NCBI RefSeq assembly: GCF_001179925.1 | Contig: NZ_CVSF01000041.1 | Span: 1-64,000, forward strand | Direction of reading: 5' to 3' | DNA from: Candidatus Pelagibacter communis | Lineage (GTDB): Bacteria; Pseudomonadota; Alphaproteobacteria; Pelagibacterales; Pelagibacteraceae | DNA: 64,000 bases | Shown: positions 1,814 to 49,726 of the stretch, piece after piece | Numbering within the stretch: the first letter of the stretch is position 1 | Layout of the letters: each line of letters begins with the position of its first letter | Notes under the pieces: model-generated | What the model saw: the letters and a program-made list of their open reading frames with translations, nothing else | What the model was told of the DNA's origin: nothing | Database searches by the model: none | Program-made: the position numbers and the translations under genes

Positions 1814-2089
1814 ATGAACAAAAAACAATTAGTTGTTAAACTTTCAGGGGCATTAAATTTAAGTAAGGCTGATGCTGAAAGAACTTTTGACACAATTACC
1901 AATACTATTTTAGATGCTTTAAAAGGTGATGATTCTGTAAAAATCGCTGGATTTGGTACTTATAAAGTGGCTAAAAGAAAAGCTAGAGTTGGAAGAAACC
2001 CTAGAACTGGTGAGCAAATTCAAATTGCAGCATCACAAAAGGTAAAATTCTTACCTGCAAAAGCTTTAAAAGAAGTATTCAATAAATAA
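1814..2089 (+). CDS. hup: HU-family DNA-binding protein
   Basis: The protein has 91 residues, the standard HU length. It begins MNKKQLVVKLSG and carries the family signature GFGTYKVAKRKARVGRNPRT for the DNA-wrapping beta arm. It is a small homodimeric nucleoid protein that bends DNA. A GGAG ribosome site lies 6 nt before the ATG. A strong factor-independent terminator follows at once (2101-2137), so it is probably a single-gene transcript. In several other alphaproteobacteria hup follows lon; here lon is about 40 kb away and has no hup behind it. Confidence 0.96.
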   Translation: MNKKQLVVKLSGALNLSKADAERTFDTITNTILDALKGDDSVKIAGFGTYKVAKRKARVGRNPRTGEQIQIAASQKVKFLPAKALKEVFNK

Positions 2090-2100
2090 CTCTTTTTAAA

Positions 2101-2137
2101 ACAGCCTTAATGTTCGTAAAATTAGCATTAAGGCTGT
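2101..2137 (+). terminator. Rho-independent terminator of hup
   Basis: Twelve-base perfect inverted repeat ACAGCCTTAATG (2101-2112) and CATTAAGGCTGT (2126-2137) with a 13-nt loop. It begins 11 nt after the hup stop codon. The T tract behind it is short, so termination may be partial. Confidence 0.85.
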
Positions 2138-2142
2138 TTGTA

Positions 2143-2159
2143 TATGCAAATATTGCATA
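2143..2159. promoter_or_regulatory. 17-bp perfect palindrome upstream of amtB, candidate NtrX-type operator
   Basis: TATGCAA-ATA-TTGCATA has seven-base arms and a three-base centre. It lies 73 bp before the amtB start and directly after the hup terminator. It contains CAA-N3-TTG, a spacing I recall being reported for NtrX sites in other alphaproteobacteria. It also contains TGCA-N5-TGCA, which is shorter than the usual NtrC spacing. A regulator site fits the position and the gene; the identity of the protein is inference. As RNA it could form a seven-pair hairpin, but it has no T tract. Confidence 0.5.
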
Positions 2160-2210
2160 GCCAATTTTCCTAATCAGCGTTAGTTTTTAAATTATTAAAA
2201 AATATAAGTA

Positions 2211-2226
2211 CTCCCTTTACAGGGAG
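2211..2226 (+). promoter_or_regulatory. Hairpin covering the Shine-Dalgarno of amtB
   Basis: CTCCCT (2211-2216), loop TTAC, AGGGAG (2221-2226). The right arm is the ribosome-binding sequence AGGGAGG that ends 5 nt before the amtB ATG. Such a six-pair GC-containing stem with a tetraloop would hide the ribosome site. GC-rich words are rare in this AT-rich spacer, which makes chance less likely. Whether it acts in control of translation is inference. Confidence 0.5.
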
Positions 2227-2231
2227 GTCTT

Positions 2232-3533
2232 ATGACTAAATTAATAAAAATAATAAGTGCACCACTTATTAGTTTAATTTTTTTATTAAACATGAGTAGT
2301 GCAGGTATGGCAGAAACCACAGTTTCTGCTGAAGTTGGATTCATATTTAATACTTTGCTTTTCTTAATTTGTGGATTTCTAGTTATGTTTATGGCGGCTG
2401 GATTTGCAATGCTAGAGTCAGGTATGGTTACATCAAAAAGTGTATCCGTTATCTGTGCAAAAAATATAGGATTATTTTCAATTGCAGGAATTATGTTCTG
2501 GATGGTAGGTTATAACTTAGCCTATGGTATTCCAGAAGGTGGTTATATTGGTAAATTTATTCCATGGTCAGATGCTAGTGCTGTTGATACAGGTTATTCA
2601 GATGGATCAGATTGGTATTTTCAAATGGTCTTTTGTGCAACCACAGTTTCTATAGTTTCTGGTACAATGGCAGAGAGAATTAAATTATGGCCATTTTTCG
2701 TATTTGCTGCAGTTCTTTCAGGAATTATTTATCCAATCGTGATGGGTTGGCAGTGGGGTGGAGGCTGGTTAGCAGAAGCTGGTTTTTCTGATTTTGCTGG
2801 ATCAACTCTAGTACACTCAACCGGTGGTGCAGCTGCTTTAGCTGGTGCAATGATTATTGGCCCTAGACTCGGAAGATTTACAAAGTCTGGTGCTCCAGCT
2901 CCACTAAAGCCTTTTGCAGCCTCTTCAATTCCTTTAGTAACTATTGGTGTATTCATTTTATGGTTAGGTTGGTTTGGTTTTAACGGTGGTTCACAATTAG
3001 CGATGGGAACTGCTGTTGATGCGATTGCTGTTTCAACTATTTTCATGAATACGTTTTTAGCAGGAGCAGGTGGTGTAATTGGTGCTGCTATAATCACAAG
3101 ACTACATTTTGGTAAAACAGACGTTGTCCAAATGTTAAATGGATGTATTGGTGGATTAGTTGCAGTAACAGCTGAACCATTAGCTCCATCACCTTTTGCA
3201 GCTATCTTAATTGGTGCAGTAGGTGGTCTGATTGTAGTTTATGGAACTAAATTATTATTCACATTAAAGATTGATGATGTAGTAGGTGCAATACCAGCAC
3301 ACTTGTTTGCAGGTATTTGGGGAACACTAATTGTTCCAGCAACAAACTCAGATGCTGCTTTCAGCTCACAATTAATTGGTGTGTTATCAGTAAACATATT
3401 TGTATTTGTAGTCGCTTACATTGTCTTTAGCGTTATTAAAGCAACTATCGGCCTAAGGTTGAGTAAAGAAGGTGAAACTAAAGGTACTGATGTTACTGAA
3501 ACAGGTGTAATTGCTTATGCGATACGTGACTAA
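2232..3533 (+). CDS. amtB: Ammonium transporter AmtB
   Basis: The 433-residue protein belongs to the Amt/MEP/Rh channel family and imports ammonium across the inner membrane. A signal peptide is seen at residues 1-27 (ending SSAGMA), as in other AmtB proteins. About eleven membrane segments follow, with conserved blocks AMLESGMV, STGGAAALAGA and IPAHLFAGIWGT containing the pore histidines. There is no glnK or glnB next to it, unlike the usual glnK-amtB pair. SAR11 genomes are reported to lack PII proteins, so control must differ. The upstream palindrome and the sequestered ribosome site are candidates. Two hairpins follow the stop codon. Confidence 0.96.
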   Translation: MTKLIKIISAPLISLIFLLNMSSAGMAETTVSAEVGFIFNTLLFLICGFLVMFMAAGFAMLESGMVTSKSVSVICAKNIGLFSIAGIMFWMVGYNLAYGIPEGGYIGKFIPWSDASAVDTGYSDGSDWYFQMVFCATTVSIVSGTMAERIKLWPFFVFAAVLSGIIYPIVMGWQWGGGWLAEAGFSDFAGSTLVHSTGGAAALAGAMIIGPRLGRFTKSGAPAPLKPFAASSIPLVTIGVFILWLGWFGFNGGSQLAMGTAVDAIAVSTIFMNTFLAGAGGVIGAAIITRLHFGKTDVVQMLNGCIGGLVAVTAEPLAPSPFAAILIGAVGGLIVVYGTKLLFTLKIDDVVGAIPAHLFAGIWGTLIVPATNSDAAFSSQLIGVLSVNIFVFVVAYIVFSVIKATIGLRLSKEGETKGTDVTETGVIAYAIRD

Positions 3534-48405: not shown

Positions 48406-49726
48406 CGATAAAGATAGAATATTTAGAAATTTGTATAATGATTTAGGTTCAGATTTTGAGTCTGCTAGAAAAAGAGGTGATTGGTCCAATACTAAAGAGA
48501 TTTGTGAAAAAGGAAAAGATTGGATAATTAATGAAATAAAACTTTCAGAGTTAAGAGGAAGAGGAGGAGCTGGATTTCCAACGGGATTGAAATGGTCATT
48601 TGCACCTAAAGAAGTTGGTTCAAGACCACATTATTTAGTCATAAATGCAGATGAGTCAGAACCTGGTACTTGCAAAGATAGAGATATTTTAAGATTTGAA
48701 CCTCATAAATTAATAGAAGGATGTTTACTTGCCTCATATGCAGTCAATGTACATACCTGTTATATTTATATTAGAGGTGAATACTATAATGAAGGTCAGA
48801 AACTTCAAAAAGCGATTGATGAAGCTTATGAAAACAAAGTCATAGGTGAAAATGCGTCAGGCACAGGTTGGGACTTTGATATTTATATACATTATGGTGC
48901 TGGTGCATATATTTGTGGTGAAGAAACAGCTTTGCTTGAAAGTCTTGAAGGCAAAAAAGGACAACCAAGACTCAAGCCTCCTTTTCCAGCTTTAATAGGA
49001 TTGTATGGATGTCCTACAATTATTAATAATGTTGAAACAATTGCAGTTGTTCCAACAATATTAAGAAGAGGTGGTGAATGGTTTTCCAAGTTGGGAAAAC
49101 CAAAAAATACGGGAACTAAAATTTTTTGTATTTCAGGAAATGTAAATAATCCATGTAATGTAGAGGAAGAAATGGGAGTCCCTTTAAAAGATTTAATAGA
49201 GACTCATGCAGGAGGTGTTATCGGTGGGTGGGATAACTTGCAAGCTGTAATTCCGGGTGGATCTTCAATGCCTTTATTGCCCAAGAAGACATGTGATACG
49301 ATTACAATGGATTTTGATTCATTGATGACTGAAAAAAGTGGTTTAGGAACAGCAGGGATAGTTGTTATTAACAAAGATCAAGATATTATTAAGTGTATGG
49401 CAAGAATTGCCAGATTTTATAAACATGAAAGCTGTGGACAATGTACTCCTTGTAGAGAAGGCTCGGGCTGGATGTGGAGAATGTTAGAAAGAATGGCAAA
49501 AGGGGAGGCGTCAAGGGATGAGGTTGATATGTTAATGGATGTAACAAAACAAATAGAGGGACATACAATCTGTGCATTTGGAGAAGGCTCTTCATGGCCA
49601 GTTCAAGGATTATTAAGACATTTTAAAGATGAAATTAAAAAAAGAAATAAATTTGATCCAATTGTTAAAGATAATAAAAATATTCCTTACCTAGTTGATC
49701 AACACTTATTGGATAAAAATGCTTAA
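48398..49726 (+). CDS. nuoF: NADH-quinone oxidoreductase subunit F
   Basis: The 442-residue subunit binds NADH, FMN and cluster N3. [17 protein letters not shown] near residue 53 and [20 protein letters not shown] near residue 171 form the nucleotide site, and [18 protein letters not shown] near residue 345 holds three of the cluster ligands. The stop codon overlaps the nuoG start by 8 nt. Confidence 0.97.

Follow-up and report, generated by a model that had tools for sequence, protein, structure and literature searches.

The window analysed here is a 64,000-nucleotide stretch of Candidatus Pelagibacter communis DNA in which hup is followed by a strong hairpin, a palindrome, and the ammonium transporter gene amtB (Table 1). 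The closest named counterpart of this amtB is 98% identical and places the genome in the Pelagibacteraceae. The palindrome, TATGCAAATATTGCATA, has two perfectly matching arms around a 3-base centre, and bears out the 17-bp repeat that an earlier note had read in front of amtB. The order of hup, palindrome, and amtB was the same in 29/30 and 14/17 of the loci that we examined in two sets. We note that the hairpin behind hup (-20.6 kcal/mol, z -6.4) also stands in relatives, where changes in one strand of the stem seem to be matched in the other, and that few T bases come after it.

Table 1. Features around amtB in the 64-kb window (window coordinates).
Feature	Position	Strand	Remarks
hup, neighbour upstream of amtB	1814..2089	+	
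Strong hairpin	2099..2139		
17-bp palindrome, putative operator, TATGCA-N5-TGCATA	2143..2159	.	conserved at amtB, common to glnA
Predicted weak -35 (TTAGTT)	2180..2185	+	17 bp before -10; from sequence and alignment; prediction only
Predicted -10 (TATAAG)	2203..2208	+	starts 44 bases past palindrome; prediction only
Foldable hairpin in amtB leader	2205..2232		covers Shine-Dalgarno
amtB, ammonium transporter, marine subtype (TIGR03644)	2232..3533	+	

TATGCA-N5-TGCATA occurs once in the window, against a mean of 0.01 in 100 dinucleotide shuffles. When the upstreams of 58 window ORFs of at least 120 aa were scored between -115 and -70, amtB alone reached 12/12 and the runner-up scored 9. In the genome that contains the window, the 14-base form TATGCAA-N3-TTGCATA is found exactly once; the other places found carry one or two mismatches, and all five of the two-mismatch places that we fetched sit in ORFs. 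The palindrome in front of amtB is real, and a chance origin is unlikely.

We assembled amtB upstreams of relatives from related genomes and database records. All 49 close-relative upstreams (L005-L029, L035-L056, L062, and L099; 25 of them from genomes given as the same genus) match TATGCA-N5-TGCATA at 11 or 12 of 12 bases, 88-95 bp before the amtB ATG, which makes good the earlier note's suggestion of a conserved cis element. L030 was left out of these counts because its gene is truncated at the 5' end. At 87-93 bp before amtB, five records from farther relatives (L064-L067 and L079) carry CTTGCAAAAACTGCATA, matching 10 of 12. Three upstreams labelled Pelagibacteraceae (L057, L058, and L063) score 9, at other places; those of the sister family score 7-8, and the other amt loci compared score 9 or less. 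For alignment statistics we merged identical upstreams, reducing the amtB set from 49 to 47 and the glnA loci described below from 18 to 17. Identity over the 47 distinct amtB upstreams is 0.97 in the arms, 0.73 in the spacer, and 0.72 in the following 62 bases, with the caveat that many of the compared sequences are closely related.

The exact pattern is present in 51 of 101 genus genomes, at one copy each. These 51 sites lie at amtB (47), before glnA (two; G034 and G066), before a gene for a solute-binding protein (one; G124), and within a coding sequence that we take to be gatA (one; G028). Among the genomes that lack the exact form, some have an amtB site with a single mismatch (CATGCA), and others have assemblies that contain no amtB.

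Because two exact sites stood before glnA, we compared glnA upstreams as well. The palindrome lies at -89 to -96 in all 14 type-I glnA loci (the weakest, L193, matching 8 of 12), and four further loci (G066, G124, G134, and G138) bring this to 18/18 Pelagibacter-type genomes. A sister group has it in 5/5 genomes, at -102 to -107, while seven further glnA upstreams (L310, L312, L313, L314, L322, L323, and L324) show no palindrome. The glnA form is commonly TATGTGAAAATTGCATAGGTG, with a degenerate left half; identity is 0.92 in the arms versus 0.73 in the following 62 bases. YATG-N9-CATA is the constant part, present in 47/47 distinct amtB and 17/17 distinct glnA upstreams, and GCATA is present in 16 of the latter. 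That the amtB palindrome also stands before glnA is the new observation of this work.

We also searched for further targets. TGCA-N5-TGCA, tried as the basis of a large regulon, was rejected as uninformative, with 49 to 129 matches per genome. TATG-N7-TGCATA has 27 distinct places besides amtB and glnA in 14 genomes; of the 16 examined, 14 lie in ORFs, one is intergenic (L279) and part of a longer inverted repeat, and one is the G124 solute-binding gene. TATG-N9-CATA followed by 43-44 bases and TA gave 49 matches in five genomes, and the 30 examined fall at amtB or glnA (8), in ORFs (21), and before gltD (one, in G022 only). In G124, the exact palindrome (L308, 2958-2974) stands 91 bp before a sugar-type ABC solute-binding protein gene, with TTGAGA at 22 and TAATAT at 44 bases past it (TTGAGA-N16-TAATAT); this gene is a possible lineage-specific third target.

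The earlier note had proposed comparing the amtB, glnA, and gltBD upstreams; the first two share the element and gltBD does not, as a palindrome of this kind is absent from 9/9 gltD upstreams apart from the G022 match, at -53. There is likewise no intergenic site at ntrYX (6/6 examined) and none at the second Amt/GS cluster (4/4 loci). None of 74 viral amt matches with at least 300 nt upstream scored above 9 of 12. A related pattern, CTATATGCA-N5-TGCATA, is carried by 108 viral stretches, and amt or glnA was present in none of the 80 examined. The gltD upstreams themselves (L339-L347, nine genomes) have another conserved palindrome, AGGTCA-N7-TGACCT with variations, and CATATTAGNTATGCA is likewise conserved there; a separate operator for gltBD is possible.

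The cis element is real, conserved, and common to amtB and glnA. It recurs at the promoters of orthologues and at two genes with linked functions, as is characteristic of conserved bacterial operators. We propose that it would act as double-stranded DNA, as the operator of a dimeric transcription factor, and that it would define a very small ammonium regulon consisting of amtB and glnA. The factor would most likely activate sigma70 RNA polymerase from near -64 when nitrogen is short, with NtrX as its likeliest binder. We assign this reading a probability of about 0.6.

The earlier note had linked the palindrome to nitrogen control without PII, and two results bear this link out: the site is common to glnA, and no PII gene turned up in the site-bearing genomes tested. 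The gene was found in 0/15 genus genomes and 0/8 further site-bearing genomes (G124 to G129, G134, and G138), 0/23 in total, and the same search found it in 13/14 control genomes. In the sister family, PII is present in 6/7 genomes and no site was seen at amtB or glnA. The link between the site and PII loss is not strict, since the PII-bearing relative G133 (L309) carries before glnA a variant whose centre is four bases long, TATGCA-N4-TGCATA. Judging from this genome, the site at glnA may predate PII loss.

We then considered candidate binders, in a survey that covered the NtrC family. Full-length NtrX was found in 12/15 genus genomes, as a single strong match, and in 4/4 sister-family genomes. 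Three genomes (G012, G105, and G022) have a second, weaker Fis-type match of 365-386 aa, and many have a weak match of about 190 aa in the NtrC-family search. NtrX is the only strong full-length match to the family in these genomes and hence the likeliest binder; by elimination it would be the leading candidate, at roughly even odds. The NtrX of the window's genome keeps the receiver, ATPase, and HTH domains and lacks GAFTGA, as would suit an activator of sigma70 promoters. The NCBIfam family that it matches best is NtrX, with 534.6 bits, under the curated cut-off of 600. According to the available part of PMC13198564, sigma70 and sigma32 are the only sigma factors of SAR11. Four observations count against the proposed reading: (i) it was not found in the site-bearing genomes G016, G029, and G116, all of which are incomplete assemblies (G029 at 92%); (ii) gltBD and ntrYX lack the site; (iii) neither published NtrX motif fits; and (iv) the DNA-binding helix is nearly identical in the sister family, which shows no site at amtB or glnA.

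Comparison with known systems, based on the available parts of the cited papers, gave partial likenesses. The NtrC box of Escherichia coli is a 17-bp palindrome with conserved GCA...TGC at positions 2-4/14-16 (PMC8743547). The SAR11 site is also a 17-bp palindrome at nitrogen genes, and the amtB sites often have A as their seventh base; however, positions 2-4/14-16 are ATG/CAT, the half-site is TATGCA rather than TGCACC, the promoter is predicted to be sigma70-like, and a PII gene was not found. NtrX sites of Sinorhizobium and Brucella have the form CAAN2-5TTG (PMC9223101). They too are palindromic, their regulator family is present in SAR11, and the common SAR11 amtB core CAAAAACTG is similar to the ftsZ1 probe CAATGGCTG of that study. 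Unlike in those sites, CAA-N3-TTG, which the earlier note had taken as the core, is present in only 4/47 distinct amtB and 0/17 distinct glnA upstreams. It also matches the window 48 times versus 36.7 expected, and is therefore uninformative by itself. We rejected it as the core, and because it is rare among the sites it cannot count as evidence for NtrX.

In Rhodobacter sphaeroides the NtrX motif is GCAn9TGC; there the protein was linked to the cell envelope, and the available text reports no role for it in nitrogen control (PMC7240162). The motif resembles the SAR11 element in having trinucleotides nine bases apart, but GCAn9TGC does not occur in the palindrome's register, where the constant part places ATG-N9-CAT at every distinct amtB and glnA upstream. 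NtrC of Rhodobacter capsulatus and Caulobacter lacks GAFTGA and works at sigma70 promoters, with glnA among the Caulobacter targets (PMC10274813). The proposed role of SAR11 NtrX is similar, as a family activator without GAFTGA for sigma70 promoters, whereas the regulator in those species is NtrC with NtrB and in SAR11 NtrX is the only strong candidate. We found no NtrC-family description of the TATGCA half-site in the literature examined, and no description of the motif in the literature searched, a scope outside which the key 2013 SAR11 nitrogen paper lies.

An operator for a different transcription factor, from outside the NtrC family, is a fair possibility, though a less likely one. The misfit to both published NtrX motifs and the three site-bearing genomes that show no NtrX speak for such a factor, but the 17-bp geometry resembles the NtrC box, and the family has in NtrX a strong full-length match.

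Promoter elements were predicted relative to the palindrome, and -10-like elements start 44-45 bases past it at amtB, glnA, and the G124 gene. Over the 47 distinct amtB upstreams, the best -10-like offset is 44 bases past the palindrome (mean 4.43 of 6). At glnA, TG-N-TA is conserved at 42-46 bases past it, and scoring for TATAAT alone gives a weak top at 43. An 'amt' start site listed in an mdRNA-Seq paper (PMC5069720, seen in part) was set aside because the gene length fits the second Amt, of ~470 aa. The predicted amtB promoter was not listed by a consensus promoter scan. By these predictions, the palindrome centre would lie near -64 of the transcription start, a usual place for an activator site. 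A palindrome alone tells nothing about the sign of control, and the site could also be read as a repressor operator that is released under nitrogen shortage. We regard repression as unlikely, because the palindrome lies upstream of the predicted -35, which is itself poor, an arrangement more usual for activation. This, together with the nearly fixed position of the palindrome centre some 64 bp ahead of the predicted transcription start, makes activation most likely.

The arms could also pair in RNA, forming a hairpin in transcripts that read through from hup. The window copy is foldable (-5.4 kcal/mol, z -1.6), and many changes at glnA leave G-U pairs (12/17 at pair 5). In the 47 amtB upstreams, however, changes disrupt the outer pair in 13 and the inner pair in 3, and none has a two-sided, compensating change in the arms; the paired changes that keep a stem in structured RNAs were thus not seen. 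Moreover, Rfam has no match for the palindrome, and no hup precedes the glnA copy. The data agree better with a DNA site that a protein binds, and we consider the RNA reading very improbable. Chance, or plain inheritance of an unselected stretch, is scarcely credible even with many close relatives among the compared sequences, as the flanks have diverged around well-conserved arms, the same palindrome stands at the same distance at the unrelated gene glnA, which in itself contradicts this reading, and the reversed control pattern has 0 matches in the 101 genus genomes.

An activator operator at amtB and glnA would have a wider implication. We tentatively suggest, at a little under even odds, that SAR11 has replaced PII/NtrBC by this two-target regulon, with NtrX recognizing the TATGCA half-site and activating sigma70 promoters from it. 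SAR11 are abundant ocean bacteria without the usual nitrogen sensor, and the palindrome is probably a switch for their use of ammonium. With a defined 17-bp operator at both genes, PII-free nitrogen sensing becomes the question of which protein binds it.

Two further observations concern other parts of the window. TATGGTGCTGGTGCATA (48893-48909) also occurs in the relatives G022 and G024, with near forms in G025 and G003, and is probably a conserved coding stretch. Among the amtB leaders of relatives, 30/40 distinct sequences fold better than shuffles (z < -1), with a mean z of -2.27. Native halves of this leader hairpin beat swapped halves (0/5000 permutations, relatedness uncontrolled), and in the window it overlaps the predicted -10.
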